64,000 nucleotides of DNA from Prorocentrum cordatum (Eukaryota > Sar > Dinophyceae > Prorocentrales > Prorocentraceae): assembly GCA_963575745.1 (NCBI GenBank), contig CAUYUJ010020615.1, positions 65,001 through 129,000 on the forward strand. The letters run 5' to 3'. Position 1 is the stretch's first letter. Each line of letters starts with the position of its first letter. Positions 39,673 to 56,430 of the stretch are shown here, in pieces. The notes beneath the pieces were generated by a model, which worked only from the letters and a program-made list of their open reading frames with translations, searched no databases and was not told the DNA's origin. Position numbers and translations under genes: made by a program.

Positions 39673-39731
<59 letters not shown>
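39629..39731. repeat. G tracts and (GA)n microsatellite at the 3' edge of the retrotransposon
   Basis: Two long G runs, then a pure GA run (39677-39731) that ends exactly where the retrotransposon 3' region starts (CGGACAAGTAGG on the plus strand). In sense orientation the element is followed by (CT)n. Confidence 0.9.
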
Positions 39732-39733
<2 letters not shown>

Positions 39734-40098
39734 GACAAGTAGGCGGACCAGGGTCCGTCCGCGAGGCGCACTGCGGTGCGACAACTCGCTAAACACTATT
39801 TGCGGCGGTGCAGCCTTTAGATACGAGGGCGGGCAACAAAAACCCCCTCCCCCGGCGCAGTGCGACAGACGCTACAGACGGCGGACAGACGGTGAAGATC
39901 TCACCTGTCAGACCGCGTGAAGAAAGAGGCCCCAACAAGAAAGGCGACGTGCTGACACGTGGCTAGGCGGCTTGGCAGACCGCCAGTTGGGCGCTTGGCC
40001 GCAAAGCGGCGCGCAGTGACGGGGCACCCCCCGCCCCCACGCCCTGACACCGTGGACGCGGAGCCACGCGTACTCACGGGCAGGCAGAAAGGAGGAGA
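39732..40098 (-). other. Retrotransposon 3' untranslated region
   Basis: About 370 bases between the RNase H stop and the (GA)n tract. It contains a small hairpin (CGCAC-TGCG-GTGCG near 39767-39780) and no ORF of note. Confidence 0.7.
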
Positions 40099-41895
40099 TT
40101 AGCGCGGGGCACCAGGTGGAGCGCCGCGGAACGATGACAGTATAGCTTGGATGGTGAGTGACGGCACGGCACCATCGGGCGAGGGCGTAAGCAGCTCGGC
40201 GAAGGCTCGCCCGGCGCTGTGGAGGCGCTGGAGTAGAGGGCCTTGACGGGCTTGAGCGGCGGCGAGGTCCGCGGCGAGAGCAGCGCACCTCTGCTGGAGA
40301 GCTGCCATAGCCTGGGACAGCTCGGTTTCGCGGTCGGCGAGGGGTGGTTGCTCAGTGCCAGCGGCCGCGGGCCTCGTGACAGGGGTGAGGTCCTCGGTAC
40401 GCCTGGCCAGGTGGTGGACTAGCGTAGTACGGCACCCCGTATGCTGACGTCCGTCACCCTTGAAAGGTGACTGGAGGGGAGCACGCGGCCCCAGGGCTGG
40501 AGCCGCTAGGGTCCCGCCCCGAGAGGTCGGAAGAGCCGCATCCTCTCGCTCAGCAACGATGGAAGCGTGGGCGGGGTGCGAAGGCCTGCCTGGTTCAGTG
40601 CCCTGCGGGGGGGCTGAAGCCGCCCCCGCGGGCTGCCGCTGGTGGGGGGGCGGAGTGGTTTGCGCGGTGGGGCCAATCCTGATGCCGTACGAGGGCTCTG
40701 AGGTCAGCCGCGTAGTAGGGTGGCGCCTCGATAGGGCGGCATGGTCGGCAGTGTGGGGTGTCGGCGGTGCGTCGTCAATGCCACTTAGTCCGCGGGGGTC
40801 ACCCAGGTCGTCGTCGGCGTCTTGGCGGTGACCGATATCGACATATGGGAGCGATGTCGCTCTCGGAGACGGAGTCGCGGTAGGCGTCGAGAGGTTGCCC
40901 GACGGGGCAGGGTTGTCGCTGGCTGGGCCGTCGTCCAAGACGTCCAATCCCCCACCGAAGCTGAACGGGTCGTCCTCCTGTTCGTCAGCGTCTTGGAGGT
41001 GAGCGGCGTCGTCATGTGGGTGCGGTGCCGCACTCGGTGGCGGAGTCGAGGGCGTCGTGCGGATGCCCGACGGGGCAAAGTTGGCGCTGGCTGGCCCGTC
41101 GCCTAGGAAGTCAAGTCCCCCGCCGAAGCCGAACGGGTCGTCCTCCTGTTCGTCGAATATCGCCCGTTGGGCCTCGGCCCAGAGCTCGTCCGGGTTCTGT
41201 GGGATGTCTGGTCCAGCCGCGGGTGGTGCCTGGTCCGACAGCAGGGGGTTTGGTTCCATTTTGTTGAGTTCCGCAGCTGTAAACCCAGCCCTGCGGTGTG
41301 GGAGCGGGAGTGTGCGGTGTCTGCGCTCGTAGATGGCGACAGCGACCCCGTGAAGCACGGTCGCTTGGCGATGTCGTGTTTTGGCAGCTTCGACAATGTC
41401 GTCTGGAAGGTTGTGAGTGCGTGCCGCCGTTGTGGCGAGGGCGTCAGCCTGACGATTGAACTCCTCCGCAATGGGCCCGATGAGCCCGAGGTCGATGCCC
41501 ATGTCTCCCAGGTGGCTGGCGATTTTCTCGACGCGGAACATGTTTGGCTTGGCCATAACACATCGGTGGATCTTTTCCCAGAGGTCCACATGCGTGCCCT
41601 GCGGCGCTGGATGTCCGTCGATGATGCTTTGGAACCCATCGACCACTGCCTGGTTGTCGACGAAAACGTGCACGGGCCGTTCGGCACATGCCGTAAGGTG
41701 GACGATGGCGAGGGTCTCCGCAACCTGGGCGTTCTGCGTTAGGCCGTGGACGCGTGCACTGTAGTTCATGCGATGGTCGATGCCGTAGTAGACGCCGTAA
41801 CCCGCTCGTGCTAGCAAAGGGATGGCTTGGTTGGTACATGCACCGTCTGTGGCAGCGTAGACCCATGTCCAACCAGTGTCGTGGTCAGGTAGGTG
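40099..41895 (-). CDS. RNase H domain with Pro-rich duplicated tail and coiled-coil end
   Basis: The open frame starts upstream of 41817: before the first listed start it reads TWVYAATDGACTNQ, giving the first Asp of RNase HI. Then RAGYGVYYGIDHRMN, AQVAETLAIVHLTA (Glu), VHVFVDNQAVVDGFQSI (Asp), a SHLGDMGIDLGL segment and EEFNRQADALATTAA (last Asp) complete the usual order. It would remove RNA from the cDNA hybrid. The tail (40100-41200) is Pro/Asp-rich and holds an internal duplication: DEQEDDPFGFGGGLDFLGDG and DEQEDDPFSFGGGLDVLDDG. The C-terminus is helical and heptad-like (LSQAMAALQQRCAALAADLA). It overlaps the reverse transcriptase ORF end in the -1 frame and has no obvious ATG, so a fusion broken by one base or a frameshift product is likely. 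Hairpins 1 and 2 lie in the tail. Confidence 0.8.
   Translation of the reverse strand, partial: HLPDHDTGWTWVYAATDGACTNQAIPLLARAGYGVYYGIDHRMNYSARVHGLTQNAQVAETLAIVHLTACAERPVHVFVDNQAVVDGFQSIIDGHPAPQGTHVDLWEKIHRCVMAKPNMFRVEKIASHLGDMGIDLGLIGPIAEEFNRQADALATTAARTHNLPDDIVEAAKTRHRQATVLHGVAVAIYERRHRTLPLPHRRAGFTAAELNKMEPNPLLSDQAPPAAGPDIPQNPDELWAEAQRAIFDEQEDDPFGFGGGLDFLGDGPASANFAPSGIRTTPSTPPPSAAPHPHDDAAHLQDADEQEDDPFSFGGGLDVLDDGPASDNPAPSGNLSTPTATPSPRATSLPYVDIGHRQDADDDLGDPRGLSGIDDAPPTPHTADHAALSRRHPTTRLTSEPSYGIRIGPTAQTTPPPHQRQPAGAASAPPQGTEPGRPSHPAHASIVAEREDAALPTSRGGTLAAPALGPRAPLQSPFKGDGRQHTGCRTTLVHHLARRTEDLTPVTRPAAAGTEQPPLADRETELSQAMAALQQRCAALAADLAAAQARQGPLLQRLHSAGRAFAELLTPSPDGAVPSLTIQAILSSFRGAPPGAPR
40489..40511 (-). 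repeat. Bulged hairpin 1
   Basis: Sense strand: outer arms CCCTAG and CTGGGG (one U-G pair), then C, inner GGC/GCC, loop TCCA. In the RNase H tail. Confidence 0.75.
40601..40632 (-). repeat. Bulged hairpin 2
   Basis: Sense: GCGGGGG and CCCCCGC arms, extended by CCC/GGG past a one-base bulge; unpaired C; GGC/GCC; loop TTCA. Read as GAASAP in the RNase H tail. Confidence 0.9.
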
Positions 41896-44590
41896 GTGTA
41901 GGTGTCCTGGGCTGAAGCCGCAGGATCTCCCTCAGGGGGGGGCCGCGGCATGGGCTGTGGCAGCGGGTCCCTCGCGAGGTCGGCCTGCAGGTCGAGGAGG
42001 GCTGGGTCTTCGTCGAAGAGCCCGCAGTGTCTTGTGTGCGGCGGGAGACGGGCCCACTGGTCGTCACTGATGAGGGTGGTGAGAGGGAGTCTTTCTCGGG
42101 CCCAGCACTTGCAGTCGCGAACAGTGTGCTCCTGAGTTTCCTCTTCCTCGTCGCAGTATCGGCAGATGGGGCTGGGGTCGGCTGACGTGTTTGATCGGGA
42201 TCGTCGCTGTTGGGTGTGGTCTCCGCCCGACAGATAGTTCAGGAGGAGCGCCAGCTGCCAGGCCGTGCATTTGGCTGCTCCTTTGGTTCGGGCGAGCCAC
42301 GTGCTGGCGAAGAGGTCGAGGCCCTGTTTGACAGAGGCAAGGTATCCAAGGTCGTGTCGCCGTGGCTTGATCCTCCGCAGAAAGGCTCTGCGTTGTGAGG
42401 CCCGCAGCATGTGAAGGAAAGCGTTTTGGGGTAAATTCAGCCAGCTGATCTGGCAGCCCCAGTCGTCGTACATGATGCCAAATGTGGGCCAGGTCCATCG
42501 GAGCTGCTGGAGCGACTGGACGAGTCGTCCGACGGGTCCTCCACCACACAGGGTCTGGACGTGGTGTTGAAGGTCTCTGGCGAGCCCGCAGAGTGTAACG
42601 TCGCGGTTAACCTGTCGCCGCAGGCACAGGAATGCTTCACGCTGCGTGATGGCGTCGATCTCCAGGGCGTGTCCTGGGACGCACACGGCCATGAGAGTCC
42701 AGAACTCGACCCACTTGTTCCCCTTGGGGCGGATAGCCGCCTTGAGGGCGTGGTTGTAGGCAGTTTTGGCTGGGCCCGATGGTGCTTGAATGTCGGTGCC
42801 CGTGGTGCAGACACTGGCAGCAAGGGAACGGGCGTGCCGCGCCTTGATAAGCATCGGCGATGGGAGCTTGCCAATGCGCGGCAGGCGACTAGTCGCCCTC
42901 CGAACACGGGCGTCTGCGGTGGCCGTGAGGTTAAGCGCGGCTGGAGCCGGCGCTGCCTCGGCGTTGATGTAACTCCCGACGAGCTTGAAGGAATCGACCA
43001 CACGTAGGGGGCGCTCCGCCAGAGTGAGCTGGGTGACGGCGGCGTGAAGTTCGTCGGTGAGCGCCCACCCTGCCACTTTACCAGGGTGAATGCGTTGACC
43101 TGAGAATCGATCAAACTTGGCGGTTTCGTCAAGAGACTTCTGCAGCTCAGACGCGGTGTGGGTAGTGGAGTTGCTGTCGTCAACAAAGGTAGTGCTGAGC
43201 GATCGAGGAACGTATCGATGCTGCCTCTTAGTCCACACGCACATGAGCAGCTTGATGTCGTCCAGGGACCACGAACTTCCCTGGAGGTGACCGTTAGTCC
43301 TGGCCAAGTCCTTAGAGTACGCTCCGTTCATGCGGATGTAGCGTTTGTGGTGGTTGTAGAAGTTTCGGCGGACAGTAACGATGTCTTGAGGGCACCCCGC
43401 GTGGAGTGCAAGGTTAAGGCAGATGTCCGTGATGAGGTAATCGAAGCACTTCTGTCGGTCTAGGGCAGCTCCAGCTAAGGGGAGGAGCAAAGCCCTGGCG
43501 TGCTCGATGCGCAGGGCGAGAGAGGTGCTGACATCCCCAACGGTAGCTTTGGGAACAGCGCCGAAACTCGTGGCGTGGGTCCATCCCTTCCGCCAGTCCG
43601 TGAGGCTACGGTAGGCTGGCGCTTCCCACGCGTACATCCAAACGGAGAGAACCGAGAGGAGTCGTTGGTCCGTCGGAAGTTCCCCTCGGCCTTTTCTGAG
43701 GCACGGGTTTGGCACGTGAAGGAGGGGTTCTGGGATGTTGCCAGTGCGTTGCATAGCACGTAAGACGCTGGCGAAGAGGCGAAGGATGTCGTCGGGTAAC
43801 TCCTTGGCCTCCTTAGTTGTCCAGCCGTCGAGTCCCCCCGCGCGGCACGGTGAACGGTTGCGAATGAAGTGGATGAGTTGGTCGTCGGTGAGGTGGAAAG
43901 GGACTGCTGGTGATGGCGTAGGCAGCTCTTGTCGGTACTCGTCGTAAAAGTCTGCCCACGTCGGCATGGCTTCGGCATCATGACCTGCACGAGCGCGGTA
44001 CCTGCCCAAGATGGGCTCCCAGGTGTCGACCATGAGCTTGAGCATGTCTTTGGTATTGGCAACAATGGCGTTGGCGGGAAGGGCGTCGGGAACCTGGGCA
44101 GGTGGTGGGTCACAAGTGTGGCCTTCGTCGTTGTCCGTGTCGAGCGAACTACCGTCGCTGGGGCTGAAGCCGCCAGCGTCGGTGTCGGCATCACTATCGT
44201 CCGTGCAAGCTTGGTCAGGGTTGAAGGCGGTGGTGTCGCAGTGGAGTTGCGTATCGTCGGGAGTGGTGGGCGTGCGGAGGTACGCCGTGGGCGAGCAGTC
44301 AGCAGCCCGTGCGTATATGGCCGCCTTTCGCCCGCTTGGCTCGCGGACACCCTCAGCCCAAATCTTGATGCGTTCAGCTTTGGCTCGGTTTGCACGTCGC
44401 GCCAGCTCTGAGTCAAGGTTTTGGATCAGACGGTCCAGGTGCTCTCCGTGTGGTGCTGGCTCGTCGGGGTTCCAGGCCTCAGGAAAGGCCAGGAGGACCG
44501 TGGGGCGCAGCTTGTGGCAGAGAAGGCGGGCCGCGGTCCACGTGCAGTCGATGCGCTGCGCCAGGTAGGCGGGATGGCACGGCAGTCGAT
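41811..44590 (-). CDS. Reverse transcriptase (non-LTR) with CCHC knuckle
   Basis: The frame runs open from about 44590 (AYLAQRIDCTWTAARLLCHK, linker from the endonuclease) to 41811. Polymerase blocks in order: SPCRAGGLDGWTTKEA; KGRGELPTDQRLLSVLSVWM; motif A ALDRQKCFDYLITD; motif B RTNGHLQGSSWSLDD; motif C STTFVDDSNST with the two catalytic Asp; then a thumb region (VDSFKLVGSYINAE). Near the C-terminus CRYCDEEEETQEHTVRDC is a C-x2-C-x8-H-x4-C zinc knuckle, a common LINE feature. It would copy element RNA at a nicked target. Hairpin 4 lies between GSYINAE and LNLTATADARV, where it adds a short Ala/Pro insert; hairpin 5 is in the linker before RT. Hairpin 3 lies in the overlap with RNase H. Confidence 0.9.
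41905..41925 (-). repeat. Bulged hairpin 3
   Basis: Sense: TCCTG and CAGGA arms, unpaired C, GGC/GCC, loop TTCA. Near the end of the RT ORF. Confidence 0.85.
42934..42954 (-). repeat. Bulged hairpin 4
   Basis: Sense: AGCGC and GCGCT arms, unpaired C, GGC/GCC, loop TCCA. Read as EAAPAPAA between conserved RT segments. Confidence 0.8.
44156..44178 (-). repeat. Bulged hairpin 5
   Basis: Sense: CGCTGG and CCAGCG arms (perfect), unpaired C, GGC/GCC, loop TTCA. Read as AGGFSPS in the EN-RT linker. Confidence 0.9.
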
Positions 44591-46012
44591 ATGGTGGTGC
44601 TGTCCGATGAAGCGAAGCTCACAAAGTTGCCGATGGAGCTTGCGAAGGCGGTTCATGTGAATCGTGGAAGCTCCGTAGGTGGGAAAGGCGCGGGGGACAG
44701 CGGGTCGCTCCTCGAACGTGGGTGTGAGCCCGTGCATGGTAGGGGGCTTCTTTTTTGGGTGGTCTGGCGGCGGAGGTGGCAGGTCGCGCAGCCGAGTGAG
44801 ATGGTATTCATGGCTGGCCTCGTTTGCCAGGGCGAACATGCGTTCCACATCGTCGCGTGTGTCGGCCTGCGCCATGCGGTCCTGGTATCGCCCTGCGATA
44901 AGGGTCCCTAATGCCTGAAGTTCGTGGCCCTCATGAGCTCCATCGTTAAGAGGGTAAGGCGTGGGGGCTAGAAGGCGTCGGGCCGTATGGTCGAGGCGGC
45001 TAAGGTCGAGCGTGACCTGTAGGCCAACGTGGGACTTCGCTGGCAAGTCACGCAGATAGCAGAAGTCGGTGACAAGGGATCGCGCCGCTTGGTTGGCGAT
45101 GGTGTAATCGATGCGCGAAGTGCGGGGACACTTGGTGACACGGTCCCAGTCAGGGATATTGCCATATGTGTGCATGGTGTGGTCAGGTGTGCCTTCAGCG
45201 ACGTTAAACCATCCGTGTTGCATCATGTGCAGCAGGTGTGGATTGTCGTCGATGTTCGTGTTGGCGTCCATGCAAATGAAATACGGGGCTGTGCCGACCC
45301 TCGCGGCGGCGCAGTCAGCTAGCCGAAACAAGTCGGTGCTGTCTCCTCCAGCGACCCCATAGAGGCTCGCTATGTAGATCCCAGCGGGCCCGTGGTTGTT
45401 TCTTCGCCGCCTGCGGCGGTGCTGGGTGCAGAGCGGGAGGAAGGCCTCGTGCCATCTTTTCTTGGCCTTGAGTGTGGCGATACAGGACGCAGTATCGTCG
45501 ACGGTGGAGTCGACGATGGCGTCCTTAGAGAGGATGGCGACCCCCCCCGATGCGCCAGTGTTGCCCTCGACTGTGTGGTCTGTGCCGCCGTGGGCAGCTT
45601 TGCGCTGGGCTCGCGCCAGATCCAGGTCAGGTCACAGACTGGCATGATATCCCCCGTGGTGTGGATTGGCGGCGTTGGTAACGATAGCTTGTCTGGTAGG
45701 CTTGGCATGTCGGGTCTCCTGCAGTGCTATGACTGCGGCGTTGTGGTCGACACCTAGAGCGGTGATAGTTGGCCAATTTGCTGGGAGACTCGTGATGTTG
45801 AGGCTGACGAGATGGATGGAGCGACCTGGCCCGTCTCCATCGGTGGAGCTGGGGTTGGCTCGTCCCGCACGGTGGAGGGCCGCCTGGCCCTTATCCAGGT
45901 AGGAGGCTTGGCCACAGTAGGAGCTCATGGCGTCCCTGCAGATTGGCTTGAACGGGGCTGAAGCCGCCGTCAGGCCGTAAGTATAGGCGGGGCATGGTCG
46001 ACACTGCGCCAG
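44590..46012 (-). pseudogene. AP-like endonuclease domain, broken by frame changes
   Basis: Exonuclease-endonuclease-phosphatase blocks appear in order across three frames: LVSLNITSLPANWPTITALG and VIALQETRH (45928-45660; Asn and Glu), DLTWIWREPSAKLPTAAQ (about 45650-45550), then GGVAILSKDAIVDS, IYIASLYGVAGGDSTDL, YFICMDANTNIDDN (Asp/Asn), SRIDYTIAN and KSHVGLQVTLDLS (His). It would nick target DNA. Frame changes lie near a G5 run (about 45654), at the 8-C run 45541-45548 and at about 44590. ATG 45928 is the first Met, but the frame is open from about 46012. Each single-base change is near a short homopolymer, so assembly error is possible. Confidence 0.8.
45951..45971 (-). repeat. Bulged hairpin 6
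   Basis: Sense: GACGG and CCGTT arms (last pair G-U), unpaired C, GGC/GCC, loop TTCA. Just before the endonuclease. Confidence 0.8.
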
Positions 46013-46055
46013 GGGGGTTCATAAACATCGGCAAAACTGCATCGAAAAATCCTCC

Positions 46056-49000
46056 TCACTCCTGTACCGTGGGGGACGAGGGGGGAGAGGTGAGACGGCA
46101 GCAGAGGGAGAGGGAGGCGACTCCTCGATCCGTCCTGCCGAACACAAGAGCAACAGCAGACCAGCGGCGGCAGCTCGACGCGGCGGCGGCGCAACGCGCG
46201 CGCATATACTGCGCACGCGACACCGCTGGTCCGTCCTGCGGTGGCGCGCCCGCCCCGTCAGTACCGTGATGAGCAGCATCAGGTGGAACAGCTCGAGCAG
46301 CGCGGTCAGTGGCCTGGCGCTGGGCCTCGTCCATGCCCGCTGCCGCGAGGCAAGCGTTGCGGACAGGACTGACTCCACGCGGGGCCGCCGCTGCCGCGGC
46401 AGCGGCTGAGGTGGCGAGGGCGCCGCCACGACTCTGTGGAGAGAGCGGTGAGCCGCCGCCGAAACCCGCCGCGAGGTCCTTGACGCGGTACTTGTTCTTG
46501 AACGGGTCGAAGGTCGGCGCCTCGTCGATGGGGGTGACCACGCGGGTGGGCGGCGGCAGCTCCTGGTCCGTGGACGGCGTCGGCTCGAGGTCGACCTGGC
46601 CAGGTTCGATGGCGCTGGCACCAAAGCGTGGCACCACCTCGGGGGCTTGGCGATCAGCCTGAGTCTCGCGGGGCGGCGAGCTCGTGGAGCTCCCAGGGGC
46701 CTTGCGCGAGCTGTGGCGACTGCAGGACCTGCTGCGCGGGACGCGCCCGCCCGTATGGCGGTCGCGTGGCGAGGTCGCCTGGGCGTTAGCGCGCGCAGAG
46801 TCCGCCCTGCTCGGGGAGCGGATCGGCGCTGCGCAGGGTGTTGGACTGGGCTGGCGGGGGCCGCCTGCGCCGCCCGCCGCCGAGGCAGCAGCCTGGTCAG
46901 GGTCGACAGCGTCAGGGCGGGGGCTGATGTGATGGGCACTTCCGTCGCTGTGCCGCGGGGAGGCGCTGTGGTGCGCCTGGGTGTACGTGAGGACGAGCGG
47001 GACGAGCGGCTGCCTCTCTCGCTCAGGTGGGGCAGGTTTTGCCTGGGCAGGGCGCAGCGATGCGGCCACGTTTGGCGGGGGCGTGTGTTGGCGCGGTTGC
47101 CAAGCGCGCACGTTCGCATCGCGCCATCCTTCAGGGCGCCCTGTCCTGCCACGGCTTGGTGCAGCCCCCTGGGCTGAAGCCGCAGGGGTTAGCACTGCGG
47201 GCTGGTTGCTGGGTGTGCTGTCATGGCGGCCTGGGTAGTGGCCCCAGGCACGCGTGGACCCTGGCACGGGCGAGGTGGCCCGTGGGGGAGACTGCACGAG
47301 TGCCCGCGGGTAACCGATGACCGCTGGATGCACCCTGGCGTGGGGGGCATGGCCGTAGCTGGAGGCGGCTGCTCCAGCCGCCGCGGGCCTGGCGCCAATG
47401 GGGCCACGGTGATAGGCGGCGCCCCCGCCGCACACCGTGTTGCCGCCTGTCGGGACGCGCGCGGGGGAGCGGTTGCGTGGAGTGCTCGGCTGACCTGCGT
47501 CGCGTTGGACGCGCTGCTGAATGCGCTGCTGGTGCTGTTGGTAGCGCTGCTGGTCGGCTCTCGAGAGCGGGCGGGTGTCGGGGAGGATGGTGGGCACGTC
47601 GGGCCGCCGCCAGCCCTGGTAGACGTGCTCGAAGGCGTGGTCTGGGTAAGTCTCCCCGACGGGTGAATATCGCCGCACATGCTCCATGTAGTCAATGTTC
47701 TGCGGCTCGGGGAGCGCCGTGATGTTTACAGCTCGCTGGTGCGCTGGTCCATAGAGACAGAAACTACCACGGTTGCTGCGGTCGTGATTCAGCTCGGCTT
47801 CGGTCGTGGCACGGCTCACCATGGCGTCGCAGAGGCGCATGTCGTAGTCGAGAGCTTGAGGCCCAGGGCCGCCCTCGGCGTCCCAGTACAGTACCACATC
47901 TCGCCAGCGGGTGCGGGTAGTGTGGATGCGCTCGGCGATGGACTCGCAGACGGTCCTGACTGTGACACGATCCCTGTGCATGTTGGTGATGGTTAGGGAG
48001 TAAGGTCGGCGGACCGTTTTGTTGAAGGTGAAGTCCTCCTTGAGGGCCTGGTGGGGGCCGAAGAGCACGTAGCCTTCCCTCCACAGCGGTTGGTCGGGGG
48101 ACGGGTCTTCAGGCATCCCCGTTCCTGTGAACCCAGGTGGCCGCCGCGTGCCGTCGGGCAATCCCTGCCTGGGGACCCGCCGCGGCCTCGGTGGAAGGTA
48201 CCATTGACCCTGGTAACCAGCTTGGCCTGGTTGTGGAGGCTCCCCCCCGGGGCCTGAAGGCGCTCGGGGGGGCTCCTTGAGGTCGTGGTGGGCTGGCGCG
48301 TTGCCATATTGGCGGGCAAGGATGTGCGGCGGCATCCCTGTGGCACGGACGTCGAACAGGCTGTGTGGACTGGGCGGATGGGGGCACCTGCTGGAGAGGC
48401 AGCATGTGTCGGAGTCCCTGTTGTCGGTGCTGTATGCACACGTCCAGCTGTTGCAAGAGTAGTCCGTGGACCAGTCCATAAGTGCACGTAGTCCGCTGAG
48501 GGCGCAGTCTGGGCACGTTGGTTGGCCCGAGGTGCCGAGCTGCGTGTTGCGGCGGGCCGCACAGTACTGACAGCATTGGAATCGGCACTGTAGGCATGAC
48601 CAGCGTCCTGGTAGGGGCGGGAGCGCTTGCTCGTTTGTGCCTGGGTCGTCTGGGTGGGGTCGGGGTCGATCCCACAAGGGCCAGACGTCGGCAAACCAGG
48701 ACTGGCCTGTAGTGCGGACGACCTCGGCGGGGAGGCGAGCGTCGTCGGCGTGGCGCTCTATCCACTGGGGCCCCATGTCCGCTGGTACCATGACCGTGCG
48801 CCACGTGTCATCCGCCTTGACGTGGACTTGGGTCGGTGCCCAGAGCTTGGTAGTGGTATCGCCATGGTCGTGGTGGAGGATGACCCAGCCGTCGCGACCC
48901 GCCACCTCAGGGTCGATAACGCGATGGCCCATGACGGTCGTCCCCCACGGTAAGTAGGCGCCGTCGTGGTGATCGCCAGGGTCAAGCCAGACCTCGATGC

Positions 49001-52000
49001 CAGGGGCATTGACACGGGCCCGCACATCGCGGACGTGGAAGGCGAGGACGTGGTAGGCGGTCGGCTCCACTTCCGTCACGATGTGCTCCCACGTCTCGAT
49101 GTCGCTGTAGTCCGAGGTGGAGTTTCCGCCACTCTGCCGTGACGCACGGGAGGCGGATCGCCGTGGGCGGGCGTGGCCTCGGGCGAGGGCTGCGGCCGCA
49201 CTGATGAGGGGCGGCATACGGCGGTCGTCGTCTCCTGATGTCGTCGATGAGCGGTCTGGACTGTGTGCCAGGGCGGCACCTGACTGGTAGGTGCGCGGTG
49301 GACCAGGCGCGGCCCCAGAGCTGGAGCCGCTGGGGCGCGACTCGCGTGCGTCGGGGTGCCCCCGCACGGGGACGGCTTGCAAGCCAGTGTACACAAGGTC
49401 GATCAGTGGCTGCGGGTCCAGCTGGAGCTTGCGAAGCGAGACGCGTGGCCGGGGCTGGTTGGGGTCGGCCCTGGTGGCTGCTTCAGTGTCGTAATGCTGT
49501 TTGGCCCATGCTCGCGCTGCCTCTGGCGAGTATAGTGCCTGCGGCGGTGGCCACGCTGCCGCGATGCCCAGCCTGCGCCGAGTGCTAGCTTCCTGGTCGT
49601 GGGCTTCAGCGGCCTCACGGAGATCTGGATGATCGTAGCCAGCGATGTGGAGGGCGTGCGCACAGTCGCCCATGCCAAATACTTGTGGCAAGGCACGGCA
49701 CCTGGAGGCAGCTTCCGTGGGGGCACACCAGTCCATGCGGATGAGGAGGCCCAGGACCCGAGGGTAGATGAGGCGCGCTCCGTGGGCCTCCCCTTTCACG
49801 AAGTTGTGCCAGTTTTCACCGCTCGGTGGTTGGGTGGCCTCGCACATCCAGAGCGCGATGGGTCCCCACGCGAGGGTGTCGTCTTCGAGGCTGTAGGGCG
49901 GGTGGGGCGGCACTGCGTACCACGCGGCCAGCGAAGGGTGCACGCTCACGTACGTGCGGCCAACGTTGGTGCCAGTTCGACCCTTCGCTTCACGGCGGGG
50001 GCCTGGCAAGAGGTGCCCTCCGCTGGCAGCGAGACGGGCCGCAAGGTCGCCGCGGGTCCCATGCCAGAAGACAGTGGGCGCGTCGGTGGTGGGTTGGCGG
50101 AGGTCCCACGTGAGGTAGGGGAAAATCGTCTCGCCTGAGTTCCCGCCCGAGTCTTCGAGCACCCAAGTGAGGCGGTTCGGGGGCCTCTGCATGATGTCAG
50201 TCCACGGCCCCAGCGCTTGGAGTGTTAGATCATGGGTGAATCGAGGATGGTCGTGGAGTCGCAGAGCGTCTTTGATGTCCTCTGTAGACACGCCACTGTT
50301 ACCAAGCGCAAAGCCGTTTTGGTACAGGGCGTTGAGGATGCTCGTCGGCGGCACGGGGACCGCTGGGTCGCGCTGGATAGTGTTGCGTAAGTTGCGCGTC
50401 GGTGGCTTGAGGGCTAGGTGGGGCGTACCAGGGCCTGAAGGCGCCTGGGGCCTGGCGGGTGATGCATAGCGTGCTCGCCGACGTGGTGGTTGGGTGTCCG
50501 TGTCGGAAGAGGAACCACGAGCATCTGCATGTCGGAAGATGGACCACGGGCTGTCGCGGGTGCGCTCACGTGGTTCCCTTGCCTCGGCGTCGCTGGCGTG
50601 GGCTGTGGCGTCTTCGTGAGTCGGTGGGTTACCATAGACCGCGCCGCTCTTGGAGCCGTATCGCGGAGACGGGCTGGTCGATCGTGGTGTGACAGACGAG
50701 GCTCGCGATACGGCGGCAGTGACTTCGACGATGGCGGCGGTGGTGGCGGTGGTGACATCGGCGACTGCGGCGGCAACTGCTGCGGCGTAGTGTTCCTGTA
50801 GCAGCGGATGTCGGAGTGAGTGCACGTGCTGGTCCTCGTGTTCGTCGGCAAGCGTGCGCGGCATTGTGTATGTGGCCTCATCACGCGGCCTCCTGCTCGG
50901 TTGGCAACAGCGGAGGCACCACTGGGCCGTGGATGAGTCCAGGGCACGCGCACAGATGCGGGCTCCTACGTGTCCGACGGCTCCTTGAGCGAGGAGTTTG
51001 GCGCCGACGAGTAGAAGACCGCACACCACTCCGCCAGTGGCAATAGCTCCGAGTTTGCCGCTGGCCCATTTCAGGACACCCCCGAGGCCGACCCCGACTG
51101 CGCTGGCTCCGCCCGAGACAATATCTCTGAGTTTGGCGCTGGTCCACTTGAGAGTACCCCACAATGCGGACGTGACGTTGTATGCCGTTGTGCATCGGGG
51201 TGTAGTGGGCACAGATGGGCCTGGTGCCGCCGCTTGACGTCGTCGTCGTTGTCGGTAGCTGGGGTCTCGGCTCGGTGTCGGCAAGTGCCCATCGATCTGG
51301 TCCTTGTACGGCATTGCTATCACGATGGCGTACGTGGCCACAAAGAAGCAAATGAGGCAGCCACAGTGTCGTGATGCCGCTGCGCTGTGCTGGGCCTCGT
51401 AGGATCCGCTGGCATCTGGGCTCGCGTCGTCGATGGGGTCGTTATCGATGTCGGCCTGCCAGTGGTCGATGGCGCTGGGATTGGAGTCAGCCACGTTAAC
51501 ACGGCAGACAAGAGTGCGGGGCGTGGTGCTGCCACCTGCGGTCTGGAGATGTCCAGGTCCAGCCAGTGCTGCAGCGGGGCTGAAGCCGCCACTGCGCGGG
51601 CTGGTTTGAGCTGGCGATGCAGTGGCATGGCTTGTCGCGTCGGCGACAGTGGCGCCTTCAGCGTCGTTGAGCTGTGCGCAGGGGTCGGTCTGGGCCGAGT
51701 CGTTGGGCGGACTGCTGTGCGACGGGGTGTGCCCTGAGTGGGGTTCGCTGTCACGGTCACGCTGGGCCGTGTCACCTGGTGGTGTCATGCCGTCACGATC
51801 CTGGGTTTCCATGTCGTCCTGGCTATCGTCCGACGCGTGGAACGAGCCCAGGGATATGTTGCTGATATCGTCCGACGCGTGGAACGAGTCCAGGGGTATG
51901 TTGCTGATATCGCTGGCCGCGATGTGCTGGAGCAGCCATGATACGGGGTCGTCTGCGGCCTGATCACCCGTGGCGTGCTGGGCGAGGCCAGCTGGCGGTG

Positions 52001-53045
52001 GTGGGTTTAGCGGTTCCGTCGGTGCCACGGCGAGCTCCGCCTCGACAAGCGGCTGCATGTCTGTCGGGTGGTGCAGGATCGCATCCGCGAGGTACGCCAG
52101 GGCGTCTTGGTCGGGTGGAGGGAGGCCTCTTGGTAGTAAGGCGTGGGCCCGTGAGAGGTATGACGGCAAAGGTGCCGTGAAAGCCTCGGGGCCGACGAGC
52201 TGAGCACGAGCGCCCTGGTATTCCAGAAGGAGGCCAAAGTAGCGGGTGGAGTACTCGCGGCTGCCCTGGATACGAGTGAGGTTGCGGTTGGTGCGCTGTC
52301 TGTCAGGGCCCGCTCTATGCCAGATGTCCTCGCACATGTCGATCGCGGTGCGCTGGCGCAGGGCGTCGTTTTTCTCCTCGGAGTCCTCCTGGAAAAAGTG
52401 GTCGTACTGTGGCAGATGGAGCGTCGCCAGGATGTACGGGGCGCAGTCCTCGAGCCATGCCCAGAACACGTCCTGATGGTCCTCACCTGGTGCCCACGCC
52501 GCAGCGCGCGGTATGAGCCGGGCTCGGATCATCATCAGGTGCCAGAAAGCGGGGTCCTCCTCGGGTTCGCCCCTGGCGCACAGAGGGGTAATGAGACCCG
52601 TGGGGCTATAGCGGGGCACGACAGCGGGGCTGAAGCCGCCACTGTGTGCATGGCCTTGGTCAGCGGCCCCGTCGAGGATGTGCTGCGCGACGGTCGAGGC
52701 CACGCTGAGGGTGGACTGCGATGCATGTGTCGTAGTTGACGAGGGCGTGCATGCACTCGCGATGGCGCCCAACGGTCCCTTGCCGCACGGACCCGCGGCG
52801 GCGGTGCTGTTCACGATCGGGTCCAAAATGGTGCAATGATCGTACTTGTAGATGCTGCTGTCATCGTAAAGGAAAACGTGTTGGGGCGCACCGCCTGAAG
52901 ACGGGCGTGCTCCAGCTAGCGAAGGGAGGGCCATGCTGCAGGCAAGGCGCCGCATGATGGCGAGGCCAGGCGGGCGGCGCGAGCGATGAGCCAAAAGCTG
53001 CATGTCGGCACACGTCCTCAAATACCCCTGAATGCTCATGTACAT
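46056..53045 (-). CDS. Giant ORF2 with membrane segments, ART-like motif set and Cys cluster
   Basis: The start is chosen at ATG 53045, 8 bases after the ORF1 TGA; the open frame extends upstream to 53147. About 2,330 residues, no repeats. Recognisable parts: an unidentified helical domain (52500-52100, DVFWAWLEDCAPYILATLHL); acidic linker; a hydrophobic segment CGCLICFFVATYAIVIAMPY (about 51365-51305); a second Gly/Ala-rich hydrophobic stretch (about 51130-50950); a domain with FWHGTRGDLAARLAASGG and GRTYVSVHPSLAAWYA (about 50080-49910), resembling the HGT and S-x-x-x-A-x-x-Y blocks of ADP-ribosyltransferase folds; a cluster CLQCRFQCCQYCA...CPDC (about 48600-48500); an unrecognised domain with DVVLYWDAEGG; a long Ser/Pro/Arg tail. 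No function is proven. It lies between gag-like ORF1 and the endonuclease, where LINEs normally have nothing. Nine of the hairpins (6 lies just outside; 7-13 inside) occur along or beside it. Confidence 0.7.
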   Translation of the reverse strand: MYMSIQGYLRTCADMQLLAHRSRRPPGLAIMRRLACSMALPSLAGARPSSGGAPQHVFLYDDSSIYKYDHCTILDPIVNSTAAAGPCGKGPLGAIASACTPSSTTTHASQSTLSVASTVAQHILDGAADQGHAHSGGFSPAVVPRYSPTGLITPLCARGEPEEDPAFWHLMMIRARLIPRAAAWAPGEDHQDVFWAWLEDCAPYILATLHLPQYDHFFQEDSEEKNDALRQRTAIDMCEDIWHRAGPDRQRTNRNLTRIQGSREYSTRYFGLLLEYQGARAQLVGPEAFTAPLPSYLSRAHALLPRGLPPPDQDALAYLADAILHHPTDMQPLVEAELAVAPTEPLNPPPPAGLAQHATGDQAADDPVSWLLQHIAASDISNIPLDSFHASDDISNISLGSFHASDDSQDDMETQDRDGMTPPGDTAQRDRDSEPHSGHTPSHSSPPNDSAQTDPCAQLNDAEGATVADATSHATASPAQTSPRSGGFSPAAALAGPGHLQTAGGSTTPRTLVCRVNVADSNPSAIDHWQADIDNDPIDDASPDASGSYEAQHSAAASRHCGCLICFFVATYAIVIAMPYKDQIDGHLPTPSRDPSYRQRRRRQAAAPGPSVPTTPRCTTAYNVTSALWGTLKWTSAKLRDIVSGGASAVGVGLGGVLKWASGKLGAIATGGVVCGLLLVGAKLLAQGAVGHVGARICARALDSSTAQWCLRCCQPSRRPRDEATYTMPRTLADEHEDQHVHSLRHPLLQEHYAAAVAAAVADVTTATTAAIVEVTAAVSRASSVTPRSTSPSPRYGSKSGAVYGNPPTHEDATAHASDAEAREPRERTRDSPWSIFRHADARGSSSDTDTQPPRRRARYASPARPQAPSGPGTPHLALKPPTRNLRNTIQRDPAVPVPPTSILNALYQNGFALGNSGVSTEDIKDALRLHDHPRFTHDLTLQALGPWTDIMQRPPNRLTWVLEDSGGNSGETIFPYLTWDLRQPTTDAPTVFWHGTRGDLAARLAASGGHLLPGPRREAKGRTGTNVGRTYVSVHPSLAAWYAVPPHPPYSLEDDTLAWGPIALWMCEATQPPSGENWHNFVKGEAHGARLIYPRVLGLLIRMDWCAPTEAASRCRALPQVFGMGDCAHALHIAGYDHPDLREAAEAHDQEASTRRRLGIAAAWPPPQALYSPEAARAWAKQHYDTEAATRADPNQPRPRVSLRKLQLDPQPLIDLVYTGLQAVPVRGHPDARESRPSGSSSGAAPGPPRTYQSGAALAHSPDRSSTTSGDDDRRMPPLISAAAALARGHARPRRSASRASRQSGGNSTSDYSDIETWEHIVTEVEPTAYHVLAFHVRDVRARVNAPGIEVWLDPGDHHDGAYLPWGTTVMGHRVIDPEVAGRDGWVILHHDHGDTTTKLWAPTQVHVKADDTWRTVMVPADMGPQWIERHADDARLPAEVVRTTGQSWFADVWPLWDRPRPHPDDPGTNEQALPPLPGRWSCLQCRFQCCQYCAARRNTQLGTSGQPTCPDCALSGLRALMDWSTDYSCNSWTCAYSTDNRDSDTCCLSSRCPHPPSPHSLFDVRATGMPPHILARQYGNAPAHHDLKEPPRAPSGPGGEPPQPGQAGYQGQWYLPPRPRRVPRQGLPDGTRRPPGFTGTGMPEDPSPDQPLWREGYVLFGPHQALKEDFTFNKTVRRPYSLTITNMHRDRVTVRTVCESIAERIHTTRTRWRDVVLYWDAEGGPGPQALDYDMRLCDAMVSRATTEAELNHDRSNRGSFCLYGPAHQRAVNITALPEPQNIDYMEHVRRYSPVGETYPDHAFEHVYQGWRRPDVPTILPDTRPLSRADQQRYQQHQQRIQQRVQRDAGQPSTPRNRSPARVPTGGNTVCGGGAAYHRGPIGARPAAAGAAASSYGHAPHARVHPAVIGYPRALVQSPPRATSPVPGSTRAWGHYPGRHDSTPSNQPAVLTPAASAQGAAPSRGRTGRPEGWRDANVRAWQPRQHTPPPNVAASLRPAQAKPAPPERERQPLVPLVLTYTQAHHSASPRHSDGSAHHISPRPDAVDPDQAAASAAGGAGGPRQPSPTPCAAPIRSPSRADSARANAQATSPRDRHTGGRVPRSRSCSRHSSRKAPGSSTSSPPRETQADRQAPEVVPRFGASAIEPGQVDLEPTPSTDQELPPPTRVVTPIDEAPTFDPFKNKYRVKDLAAGFGGGSPLSPQSRGGALATSAAAAAAAAPRGVSPVRNACLAAAGMDEAQRQATDRAARAVPPDAAHHGTDGAGAPPQDGPAVSRAQYMRARCAAAASSCRRWSAVALVFGRTDRGVASLSLCCRLTSPPSSPTVQE
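47166..47188 (-). repeat. Bulged hairpin 7
   Basis: Sense: CCCCTG and CAGGGG arms (perfect), unpaired C, GGC/GCC, loop TTCA. Read as TPAASAQGA in ORF2. Confidence 0.9.
48242..48272 (-). repeat. Bulged hairpin 8
   Basis: Sense: CCCCCCCGAG and CCCGGGGGGG arms (9 of 10 pairs), unpaired C, inner stem switched to GCC/GGC, loop TTCA. Read as RAPSGPG. Confidence 0.85.
49312..49336 (-). repeat. Bulged hairpin 9
   Basis: Sense: GCCCCAG and CTGGGGC arms (perfect), unpaired C, GGC/GCT (one G-U), loop TCCA. Read as SGSSSG. Confidence 0.85.
50428..50448 (-). repeat. Bulged hairpin 10
   Basis: Sense: CCAGG and CCTGG arms, unpaired C, inner GCC/GGC, loop TTCA. Read as APSGPG. Confidence 0.85.
51571..51595 (-). 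repeat. Bulged hairpin 11
   Basis: Sense: GCAGTGG and CCGCTGC arms (one U-G), unpaired C, GGC/GCC, loop TTCA. Read as SGGFSPA. Confidence 0.9.
52621..52645 (-). repeat. Bulged hairpin 12
   Basis: Sense: ACAGTGG and CCGCTGT arms (one U-G), unpaired C, GGC/GCC, loop TTCA. Read as SGGFSPA. Confidence 0.9.
52886..52910 (-). repeat. Bulged hairpin 13
   Basis: Sense: GCACGCC and GGTGCGC arms (6 of 7 pairs, one G-U), unpaired C, inner GTC/GGC (one U-G), loop TTCA. Weakest member. Confidence 0.65.
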
Positions 53046-53053
53046 TGCAACAA

Positions 53054-55786
53054 TCACGCCCCCTGCAAGACTGCGGGTGCCCCTACACCAGATAGCTTGC
53101 GCGTGCTGCTGCCAAAACAGACATGAGGCGACAAGAAAGAGATACAACGCGAAGAGGGAAGAGATGCCTCTGAAGGCGCTTCCTCGGAGGGCTGAGGCGG
53201 GCTCTCTGAGGCACCTTCAATAGGGTTCCTGGGTGGCCCGACCCTTGTCTTTGCCTTTGTCAGCCCCTGGGGGCCCCGTCCCTGGGGTGACCTGGCCTGG
53301 CTGGTCGATCCACCCGCAGACAGCCACGGGATCAGCGGCCGCTGCAGCTTCCTCCTTCTTAGTTTCCAGAGTGGCCACTTGTGGCAGGGGATGGTGCCCC
53401 CCGTGAGGTGCCCGAGGAGGGCCTGGATGTCGCCGCGCAGTGCAGCAGCTTCGGCGGTTGCCGTCTGTTGCTGGGTGACGACGGTGGCAAGCCCCCGTTC
53501 CAACCCCGAGACGTGCTCCGTGAGTGTGGCCTGGGAGGAGAGAACGCCCGCAAGCTGGACCTGCATGTTATCCACCGTGTTGGCTAGCAGCTCGTGCTGT
53601 TGTTCCATGTGCTGGATGCGGGTCGTGGCAGCATCTGGCGGTTGAGAGGCCGATGCGAAGCGCTCACCGAAGGTGTTGAGTTCGTGGGAGGCCTCGCTGT
53701 ATTCATCGCCTGATGAGAGGATCTCGACGTCCTCGGCGTCGCCTGGTACTTCGGCGGCTGTGGCAGCGTCGCCTTCGGTGTGGCCCCCACCTTCTGCCGC
53801 CACCGTGCCAAGCCGAGAGTCATGACCACCTGCTCCTGGGGCGGCCGTTTGTTCAGCGGCTCCGTCCGTGCCGTGCGGGGGTGCAGAGGAGCTGCGGCCT
53901 GGGGCGCAGTGTGACCTTGCGTGCGGCGGGACGTCACGTTTCCCACTGGAGGATCGGTGGCGCTTGGCTGAAGGCTCCTCCTTGGGGATCAGGAGCGGTG
54001 CGACGCCTTTGCCTTTGGGCGTGGCAGTCATGAGGTCGTGGAGGTAGGGGCTCTGGGCCGCTTTGGTGAGGAGTGTGCCGGTGGCGGGGCTAAAGCCGCC
54101 ACCACGGGCTGGCGGCGTCACAGGCTCTGTGATGGTGGTAGGCGTGACGATGGTGACGTTGTCCCGCTTCGGCACCACCTCAGCCAGCGGGGCCTCGGTG
54201 ATGCTCCACGGGATGGGGCACCCCGCAACTTGTACCGTGTATGTGAGTGGGGGCCGATGGGCACGCACTAAGGCAAACTGGGCCGCAGTGGCTGGGTCCC
54301 AGGCGGTGTGGTAGACCTCACAGTCCCATTTAACGGATGGGCCCGTGAGAGTCTTGGCGAGCTGGGTCAGCGTGGCGTGGCGTGCCGCAATGCCAGTGAT
54401 GCGGTAGCGCGTCTTGGCGAGGGAAGCCTCGCAGCCACGGATGCTGACGGCAGCAGCCTTGGCGGCGTCTGACCCCCGTGGAACACGGATCCCCAGTAAG
54501 CCTGACTTGCCGTGCCTGACGACTCCCAGGGCCTTGAACTCCACCGACTTCTGGAACGCATCTGCCATCGTGATGGGATGGTCCTCAGGGAACCACACGG
54601 TCTGATACTTGTCAGCGGTGGGCTCGTCAGCACCTACGTTGCTGAGGTCGTAGGTAGCGCCGAGTTGCCCTGATCCCGCCAAGACCTTGTCGACCGCTTG
54701 GAGACTGACGCCGAAGGTGGCAGCCAGGGACCTCTTTCCGACGCCCGATCCAAACCTGCCTAGGCTTTTGCAGGGTTCAAGGATGGTGACGGCTTTAAAG
54801 TTGCCGTGGAAGAGGGCCTTGAAGGTGTCCTGGAGCTGACTATCGAGCTCCTGGCGGCGAGCGTCTTTCTTGGACTCCCTGTGCTTTTGGTTTTGGCGCG
54901 CCTTGTCCTGTGGAGCGGAGTCCCCTCGAAAAGGGCCCTTGGTGCGTGGACCACCGTTCACGGGGGCACCTCCCGAGAACTGGTCCTCGAAGGCCTGATG
55001 CATGGAGGGGACTGCGGCGATGGCCTCGGTTTCATGTATGGTCGCCCGAATCCAGCATACGTGGTCGGCAGGGTCGATGGTGGCGACGGCTACTTTTTCC
55101 GTGCAGGCGACCTCCTTGGTGCCCAGCTGGTACACGGTCACGGGGACGTGCGTGTGGACCACTTTGGGCGCCTTGGGGTGACGCTTCAGGACGGGGACGG
55201 CGAGCTCGGTACCGACGTAGTTGTCGTTTTTTGGGCCCATGACAGCAATCGCGAGCTGACCCGTGGTTCGCTTGCCCTGCTCGAGGTGGTGTTGGAGCAG
55301 CCGCTCACCGCTCTCGTAGTCGTGGAGGCTGATACTGGGCTTGTACGTCTTGCCGTCGTCGGGAGATGTGGGTTCAGCGAGGACGGGGACCTTCCAAAAG
55401 GCCGGGTCCAAGGCGATGAATTGGGCGTCCGCAGCCTGAAGACGTGCGGAACCCGCTGGTGGGTGTGATGTGTCACCGCCAATGCGCTTAGGCTTGCTGC
55501 GCTGGTGATGATCAAGCGTGTAGCTGATCTGGTTGGCGGCGCACATGCGGATCAGGGCGCTGCCAAGCTTCTTCGTGTTGGACTTGTGCATGTCGTACGT
55601 TGCCTGGAGCTCGTCCGCGTTCAGTTCGGCAAGCCCGTTGTATGCGGCCGTGGGGCGGTCAGACCCCGCTTGCTTGAACGCTGCGATGCAGTCCTGCTTG
55701 CGTTGGAGGAGAGATCCTTCAGCAGCAGGACGGGAACTCGGAGGCTGCTTGGAAGAGCGACGGCGGTCCGGCTTCTTGGGGGCCAT
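53054..55786 (-). CDS. ORF1, gag-like nucleic-acid-binding protein with coiled coil
   Basis: ATG at 55786 (MAPKKPDRRRSSKQPP), 910 residues. Basic N-terminus; a predicted folded part (YVGTELAVPVLKRHPKAPKV; VAVATIDPADHVCWIRATIH); a region with KSLGRFGSGVGKRSLAATFG; a possible RRM-like unit (YRITGIAARHATLTQLAKTL followed by VQVAGCPIPWSITEAPLAEV); a charged linker with RHRSSSGKRD; and a C-terminal heptad region (MEQQHELLANTVDNMQVQLA; LTEHVSGLERGLATVVTQQQ) suggesting oligomerisation. As in other LINEs it would bind element RNA. Hairpin 15 lies near the N-terminal third and hairpin 14 before the C-terminal half. Its TGA is 8 bases from the ORF2 ATG, which fits termination-reinitiation. Confidence 0.75.
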   Translation of the reverse strand: MAPKKPDRRRSSKQPPSSRPAAEGSLLQRKQDCIAAFKQAGSDRPTAAYNGLAELNADELQATYDMHKSNTKKLGSALIRMCAANQISYTLDHHQRSKPKRIGGDTSHPPAGSARLQAADAQFIALDPAFWKVPVLAEPTSPDDGKTYKPSISLHDYESGERLLQHHLEQGKRTTGQLAIAVMGPKNDNYVGTELAVPVLKRHPKAPKVVHTHVPVTVYQLGTKEVACTEKVAVATIDPADHVCWIRATIHETEAIAAVPSMHQAFEDQFSGGAPVNGGPRTKGPFRGDSAPQDKARQNQKHRESKKDARRQELDSQLQDTFKALFHGNFKAVTILEPCKSLGRFGSGVGKRSLAATFGVSLQAVDKVLAGSGQLGATYDLSNVGADEPTADKYQTVWFPEDHPITMADAFQKSVEFKALGVVRHGKSGLLGIRVPRGSDAAKAAAVSIRGCEASLAKTRYRITGIAARHATLTQLAKTLTGPSVKWDCEVYHTAWDPATAAQFALVRAHRPPLTYTVQVAGCPIPWSITEAPLAEVVPKRDNVTIVTPTTITEPVTPPARGGGFSPATGTLLTKAAQSPYLHDLMTATPKGKGVAPLLIPKEEPSAKRHRSSSGKRDVPPHARSHCAPGRSSSAPPHGTDGAAEQTAAPGAGGHDSRLGTVAAEGGGHTEGDAATAAEVPGDAEDVEILSSGDEYSEASHELNTFGERFASASQPPDAATTRIQHMEQQHELLANTVDNMQVQLAGVLSSQATLTEHVSGLERGLATVVTQQQTATAEAAALRGDIQALLGHLTGGTIPCHKWPLWKLRRRKLQRPLIPWLSAGGSTSQARSPQGRGPQGLTKAKTRVGPPRNPIEGASESPPQPSEEAPSEASLPSSRCISFLSPHVCFGSSTRKLSGVGAPAVLQGA
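54081..54105 (-). repeat. Bulged hairpin 14
   Basis: Sense: GTGGTGG and CCGCCAC arms (one U-G), unpaired C, GGC/GCC, loop TTTA. Read as GGGFSPAT in ORF1. Confidence 0.9.
55429..55451 (-). repeat. Bulged hairpin 15
   Basis: Sense: TCCGCA and TGCGGA arms (perfect), unpaired C, inner GTC/GGC (one U-G), loop TTCA. Read as ARLQAAD, the third frame. Confidence 0.85.

Positions 55787-56430
<644 letters not shown>

Follow-up and report, generated by a model that had tools for sequence, protein, structure and literature searches.

Hairpins with a bulged C and a TYYA loop are dispersed along a 16-kb LINE-like element of Prorocentrum cordatum and recur in shorter elements sharing its ends

The window (the whole stretch of 64,000 nucleotides analysed here, G000:C19766:65001-129000, from a genome of 4.13 Gb in 21,875 contigs that was searched) contains a LINE-like element of ~16.2 kb at 39731..55940 on the minus strand, the sense strand of which runs from window position 55940 to 39731. 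As read from the sequence, the element extends from TAGTCTCGGCTCGAGAGT to GTCCGC between (CT)n tracts, and no LTRs were seen on reading of its ends. Both ends (window 55940 and 39731), as well as those of the shorter element B described below, lie in (CT)n, and a target preference for CT/GA microsatellites is possible. The 5′-end pattern of the LINE has 908 matching places genome-wide, and the same-family copies that were fetched (20 stretches) gave 49 aligned blocks of >300 bp that are 82–97% identical, some copies covering the element end to end. ORF1 (53057..55786, minus; 910 aa in the window copy) aligns with six database relatives at 41–84% identity, has nothing in Pfam at E 0.01, and its profile gave two matches in the PDB with E-values of 0.2 and 0.55. 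ORF2 (46059..53147, minus) encodes an orphan protein of 2363 aa with no Pfam match, no homologue among the 8000 candidates scored, and one PDB match at E 0.56. By eye, the ORF2 stretch VFWHGTRGDLAARL...GRTYVSVHPSLAAWYAV (window ~50100–49700, minus) has what we take to be a resemblance to an RNA 2′-phosphotransferase/ADP-ribosyltransferase-like motif; the same stretch returned no database match. Near the ORF1/ORF2 junction, a 34-nt block, GCCTCAGCCCTCCGAGGAAGCGCCTTCAGAGGCA (53164–53198), shows zero mismatch across copies and is of a different class from the hairpins that are the subject of this study. The remaining coding regions, all on the minus strand, comprise an endonuclease region (44429..45631; weak Exo_endo_phos match, E 0.032) with a stop upstream in the window copy, a reverse transcriptase (RT) region (41814..44045; collinear RVT_1 and zf-RVT matches, E 0.02 and 0.033, respectively), and an RNase H region with a C-terminal tail (40102..41817; RNase_H, E 0.00074). 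All four matches fall under the Pfam cut-offs, and their order is right for a LINE of the EN-RT-RNase H type. The tail of the RNase H frame also includes a 168-bp unit in two tandem copies (40811–41154). The frames of the window copy are broken, whereas the C21 copy retains a single frame of 3470 codons from inside ORF2 to the RNase H end, with one base within it unread. No relatives of the RT were found in viral contigs.

Along the sense strand of this element lie 15 hairpins, each with an outer stem that varies, a single C bulged out on the 5′ side, an inner stem of 3 bp and a loop of the form TYYA, all on the minus strand between window positions 40489 and 55450. A scan with strict pairing finds 14 of them, and the fifteenth (bulged C at 48262) has an A·C mismatch at its second outer pair followed by seven pairs, so that the count and common orientation given in an earlier note on this DNA are borne out. 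Numbered in the sense direction, with the bulged C in brackets, those with a TTCA loop are hairpins 1 (55428..55450; C 55444), 3 (52889..52907; C 52903), 4 (52621..52645; C 52638), 5 (51571..51595; C 51588), 6 (50428..50448; C 50443), 8 (48243..48271; C 48262, the one with the A·C mismatch), 9 (47166..47188; C 47182), 10 (45951..45971; C 45966), 11 (44156..44178; C 44172), 13 (41905..41925; C 41920) and 14 (40605..40629; C 40622). The loop is TCCA in hairpins 7 (49312..49336; C 49329), 12 (42934..42954; C 42949) and 15 (40489..40511; C 40505), and TTTA in hairpin 2 (54081..54105; C 54098). The bulge is thus C in 15/15, and across the 15 rows the columns that never vary spell C G. C T.. A G. 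This agrees with the layout of bulge, inner stem and loop proposed in the earlier note, but the contiguous outer stems are 4–7 bp rather than 5–10 bp long, and at site 10 only three contiguous outer pairs are present in most copies. The gaps between successive hairpins (1346, 1195, 265, 1050, 1145, 1114, 1067, 1080, 1216, 1794, 1223, 1029, 1298 and 117 nt) are near-regular, with 11 of the 14 within 950–1400 nt; their coefficient of variation of 0.39 is equalled or undercut in 0.055% of uniform placements, a test devised post hoc. When folded locally in a 200-nt context, 12 of the 15 hairpins have a mean pair probability of at least 0.69, and the poorly folding ones are those with bulges at 52903 (0.02), 49329 (0.29) and 40505 (0.19).

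The hairpins are far in excess of what composition would give. A core, defined as the C, the 3-bp inner stem and the TYYA loop, occurs 17 times on the sense strand of the element, 14 times with an outer stem of at least 4 bp; the antisense strand has two cores (one with four outer pairs), and the rest of the window, both strands included, has 14, all with at most one outer pair. In 200 dinucleotide shuffles of the element the mean number of hairpins is 0.035 (maximum 1), which excludes an equal density in randomised sequence. In a scan open to any tetraloop with a 5′ bulge of 0–2 nt and an outer stem of at least 5 bp, C-bulged TYYA hairpins make up 13 of the 31 stems and no other class appears twice; together with the shuffles, this rules out chance or composition as the source of the hairpins. 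On the 15 rows, 90.7% of the pairing cells are paired, compared with 35–51% in slid controls, and the covariation score is matched by 0 of 500 shuffles; two-sided change is seen at 8 of 10 pairs, a count also reached by 27 of 500 shuffles. The assertion that the outer stems differ completely and yet pair holds for the pairing, but the outer stems of sites 4 and 5 resemble each other. Since the rows were chosen by pairing, the covariation test is partly circular, and more weight is therefore put on the core-only count and on the shorter elements B and D. A covariance model (R1, Infernal) built from the 15 LINE hairpins alone was run on 13 sources (156 kb). It recovers all 15 source hairpins and, up to E 1, nothing more from the window, in keeping with the claim that the window has none elsewhere; Rfam, at gathering scores, gave no match in the window. 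Genome-wide, the 11-nt core has 15,054 occurrences versus 7,418 for the reversed control, an approximately twofold ratio which implies that many cores are chance and under which hairpins may still exist outside the LINE elsewhere in the genome, and five single genomic places with the core alone (L001–L005) show no outer stem by eye. Outside the LINE alignments, L024 has four stems with a bulged T and a TTCA or TCCA loop (L024:6971, 8288, 8345 and 9698); two have six outer pairs, two seem to repeat the other pair, and they possibly belong to another repeat family.

Alignment with the same-family copies indicates that the hairpins are kept as nucleotide sequence. The comparison proposed in the earlier note gives a core pairing and loop retained in 133 of 139 aligned site-copies, the six losses being sites 5 and 6 in L013, sites 8 and 10 in L015, and site 12 in L022 and L026; at site 11 of L023, two outer pairs remain. 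Most hairpin sites are inside long open frames, and the 14 that fall in a listed frame are distributed over the three codon phases as 1, 8 and 5 (site 10 is in none in the window copy). Mismatch at codon positions 1, 2 and 3 is 1.5, 1.0 and 1.1% in the hairpins and 4.5, 4.2 and 14.6% in the rest of the ORFs, the third-position values deriving from 913 and 46412 cells, respectively, and the minimum third-position mismatch in 10000 draws of random blocks is 4.8%. A constraint on the protein would hardly keep third positions this constant at sites that differ in phase, and the conservation goes beyond what the protein needs; the three phases and the 1.1% versus 14.6% contrast rule out peptide conservation as the cause, as had been argued from the reading of the insert in all three frames. 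The peptides at sites 1 and 2 of P0004–P0006 (RLQ A/T/P AD; GGGFSP, GGGSSP, GGGGFSP) would fit a kept hairpin, a reading from peptides alone that is only suggestive, and in P0007–P0009 neither peptide is kept. By offset from the bulge, and over 14 sites, mismatch falls from 14.6% at −7..−5 to 0.9% at −5..0, stays at 0.8–2.5% over the bulge, inner stem and loop and at 1.7% at +11..+16, and then rises to 8% and 13%; the block from −5 to +16 has on average 1.6% differences, compared with 7.7% overall and 12–15% just outside the 5′ stem. On either side, the low-mismatch block reaches as far as the fifth outer pair. Site 3, which was left out of the offset table, is conserved in 10 copies. Both the offset and the codon tables count copies as independent, and as the copies are related, their cells are not. 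Taken singly, sites 2, 3, 6, 7 and 10 have 4.2–5.8% mismatch (28th–43rd percentile of 21-nt blocks), an ordinary conservation due in part to private changes in the window copy. As many other blocks of the element are equally conserved, conservation alone does not define the hairpin class. An extra sense hairpin (ctggg C GTC TTCA GAC ctcag) is situated 37 nt past site 5 at L024:506 and L028:1944; it is seen in these C93 and C123 copies alone, and the window copy has a degenerate version differing by point changes.

The same class of hairpin is found in two shorter elements. Element B (6.9 kb, C2:406.7-413.6k), which lies between two LINE copies in C2, has the LINE 5′ start and its last 377 bp (90%), together with open frames of its own and no LINE protein match. 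It carries six sense hairpins (four with a bulged C, two with a bulged A) and none antisense; the one at 407718 is downstream of B's long ORF. Among the matches listed to the 5′-end pattern, three are of type B (C2, and C1178 twice) and seven are of a further type with CATAGCG. To the latter belongs element D (C738, 5.5 kb), a relative of B that has 209 bp (87%) and 375 bp (86%) in common with the LINE ends and also bears six sense hairpins, none antisense, with a bulged T in one of the six. At a site matched between B and D, the inner stem changes from GTC/GGC to GCC/GGT with pairing kept and the bulge from A to T, while at another site the loop changes from TCCA to TTCA; the bulge base is not strictly read. 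At E up to 1, R1 recovers six of six hairpins in B and five of six in D: eight C-bulged ones at E <0.001, one at 0.012, and the two A-bulged ones of B at 0.07 and 0.42, the T-bulged hairpin of D being absent from these matches. The building of such a covariance model, recommended in the earlier note, thus gives matches in B and D and nothing further in the window. The density of hairpins is similar in all three elements (one per 1.08 kb in the LINE, 1.15 kb in B and 0.92 kb in D), and in B and D they are not evenly spaced. Two hairpins each in B and D sit in 34–40 bp that match LINE site 14, so that not all of the B and D hairpins are independent and some may be inherited pieces. The shared ends suggest that B and D depend on the LINE for mobilisation, as non-autonomous elements. 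L039 (C1178:49301-56800) is probably a B/LINE chimera, resembling B for ~4 kb and then bearing hairpins like those of LINE sites 6 and 7.

More distant LINE families of the same genome present a different picture. Starting from P0003, we located copies in C3524, C1856 and C13792 (88–94% alike in most long blocks) and a more distant copy in C19111; by block, these are 34–50% identical to the window element in the RT and 28–32% in ORF1, and none has an ORF2 match. C3524 (L029/L030) has head-to-tail repeats of the endonuclease and RT matches, and because those to the endonuclease return after ~7.4 kb, there is no room for a 7-kb ORF2. Neither the scan nor R1 (run on L029–L036) found any of the hairpin class in the 54.5 kb around these families, where the scan returned one G-bulged stem with four outer pairs. 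Hairpins and ORF2 accordingly co-occur in the few families seen, and as the hairpin-less LINEs have ORF1 relatives but lack ORF2, ORF2 is a better first candidate than ORF1 for a protein that binds the hairpins, a choice that follows from co-absence and to which we attach low certainty.

Several known systems offer points of comparison. The iron-responsive element has a 5′ C bulge, an upper stem of 5 bp and a loop of 6 nt; the LINE hairpins likewise have a C bulged on the 5′ side under a short stem with a loop, but their inner stem is 3 bp and their loop 4 nt long. The known cis-acting RNA signals of LINEs (3′-end recognition, 5′UTR structures) are few and terminal. The present hairpins would resemble them as structures of the element's RNA used by the mobilisation machinery and common to non-autonomous partners, but are many and inside ORFs. 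SINEs share LINE tails, and B and D likewise share LINE terminal sequences, but at 5.5–6.9 kb, with their own long open frames and with both ends and an internal hairpin class in common, they differ from the usual LINE/SINE partnership. The likeness to the packaging signals of ssRNA viruses is closer: many hairpins of one type per RNA, variable stems, a 4-nt loop ending in YA and a 5′ bulge, together with nucleotide conservation that is independent of coding. In MS2, the packaging motif has an xxYA loop and a 5′ bulged A, with 15 mapped sites (PMC6281560), and the analogy with RNA-phage coat-protein hairpins drawn in the earlier note is close in that respect, the motif here being TYYA with a bulged C. 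The host there is a virus and here a LINE-like element with no known coat protein, the inner stem here is 3 bp, and the LINE hairpins are sparser (~1 per 1.1 kb) and more uniform. The loop fits xxYA, but the bulged base is C in 15/15 LINE hairpins, A in only two of the six in B and T in one of the six in D; as the bulge base differs, membership of the MS2 class is not claimed, and the resemblance is one of working principle. Among the matches listed, the titles and abstract openings (journal literature without preprints and with few subscription titles) mention no such hairpins in a LINE, and the main text of PMC5890265 has no occurrence of hairpin or stem-loop.

Variable stems, a conserved loop and bulge position, nucleotide-level conservation and the presence in B and D lead us to a reading in which the hairpins are dispersed RNA recognition sites for an element-encoded binder, serving particle assembly and used by non-autonomous partners, and to this we give an even chance. 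The 15 hairpins would be copies of one RNA recognition element, placed about once per 1.1 kb in the sense transcript of a LINE of 16 kb. An RNA-binding protein encoded by the element, possibly a domain of the 2363-aa ORF2 product, would grip the TYYA loop and the bulged base, and through many such contacts per transcript the RNA would be recognised and taken into a retrotransposition particle. The shorter elements that share the LINE 5′ and 3′ ends would use the same hairpins and so be mobilised in trans. That the hairpins act as RNA, are bound by a protein, that this protein is encoded by the element, and that they serve a step of RNP assembly or packaging, we infer from these features. B and D share mainly the LINE ends and carry the same hairpins nonetheless, which strengthens the interpretation as cis signals first suggested in the earlier note; one hairpin per 1.1 kb is, on the other hand, sparse for a capsid.

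An alternative that we consider unlikely, albeit the most serious of the rivals, is that the hairpins are bound by a host protein through which a very long unspliced RNA would be exported, stabilised, translated or localised. Conservation and occurrence in B and D would be no different under this reading; against it stand the LINE families of this genome that lack both ORF2 and hairpins, and the absence of hairpins from the rest of the window. Host binding would also fit the predominance of post-transcriptional control that is said to hold for dinoflagellates (PMC12787238). A role as DNA, for instance as an extruded stem or in single-strand cDNA during target-primed reverse transcription or recombination between copies, seems improbable to us. 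The motif would form in single-stranded DNA too, and the probable B/LINE mosaic in C1178 is what recombination could leave; the single orientation within the element speaks against it, however, and the 5′ bulge and fixed loop look like RNA read by a protein. G-U cells also slightly outnumber A-C cells (15 to 10 when counted symmetrically over 28 different 21-mers, of which two are probably spurious), which is the direction expected from the earlier remark that U-G pairs point to sense RNA rather than DNA, as an argument a weak one.

We see still less reason to regard the hairpins as RNA processing sites, the stems of which would hide or present trans-splicing or cleavage sites. The invariant columns C G. 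C T.. A G would suit this, in that the core has what we assume to be the look of a 3′ splice acceptor, but a linear acceptor needs no paired outer stem of varying sequence, and most of the hairpins are inside long open frames. Least credible of all is the tiny mobile hairpin inserting into the LINE, which the earlier note had offered as an alternative. The many similar copies, the one extra hairpin confined to the C93 and C123 copies and a short deletion across site 6 in L013 could be read as its traces. Against this, same-family copies have hairpins at the same 15 places, apart from a few single losses, with outer stems that differ from site to site and a single orientation, and the rest of the window and the fetched distant LINEs have none. 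Point changes are what separate the extra hairpin from its counterpart in the window copy, and the L013 gap does not coincide with the hairpin in its ends. We reject the mobile hairpin, as the losses are by substitution save for that one short deletion.

The answers known to us to how a LINE protein chooses its own RNA are cis preference and terminal signals, and how such proteins select their RNA along its length is an open question. A conserved internal hairpin, repeated in a LINE and in shorter elements that share its ends, offers a direct and countable test of RNA choice. In its boldest form, which we advance tentatively and would sooner doubt than accept, the recognition reading makes this a LINE with a virus-like, multi-site packaging code: bulged hairpins of a single type, set at near-regular 1.1-kb steps through its ORFs in all three frames, would be deciphered by the ORF2 protein during particle building, and parasitic elements of 5–7 kb would have copied the code to gain entry. 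If dispersed recognition of this kind is true, the principle of dispersed packaging signals would extend outside viruses, and the hairpin and its binder may perhaps provide a ready RNA/protein tethering pair.
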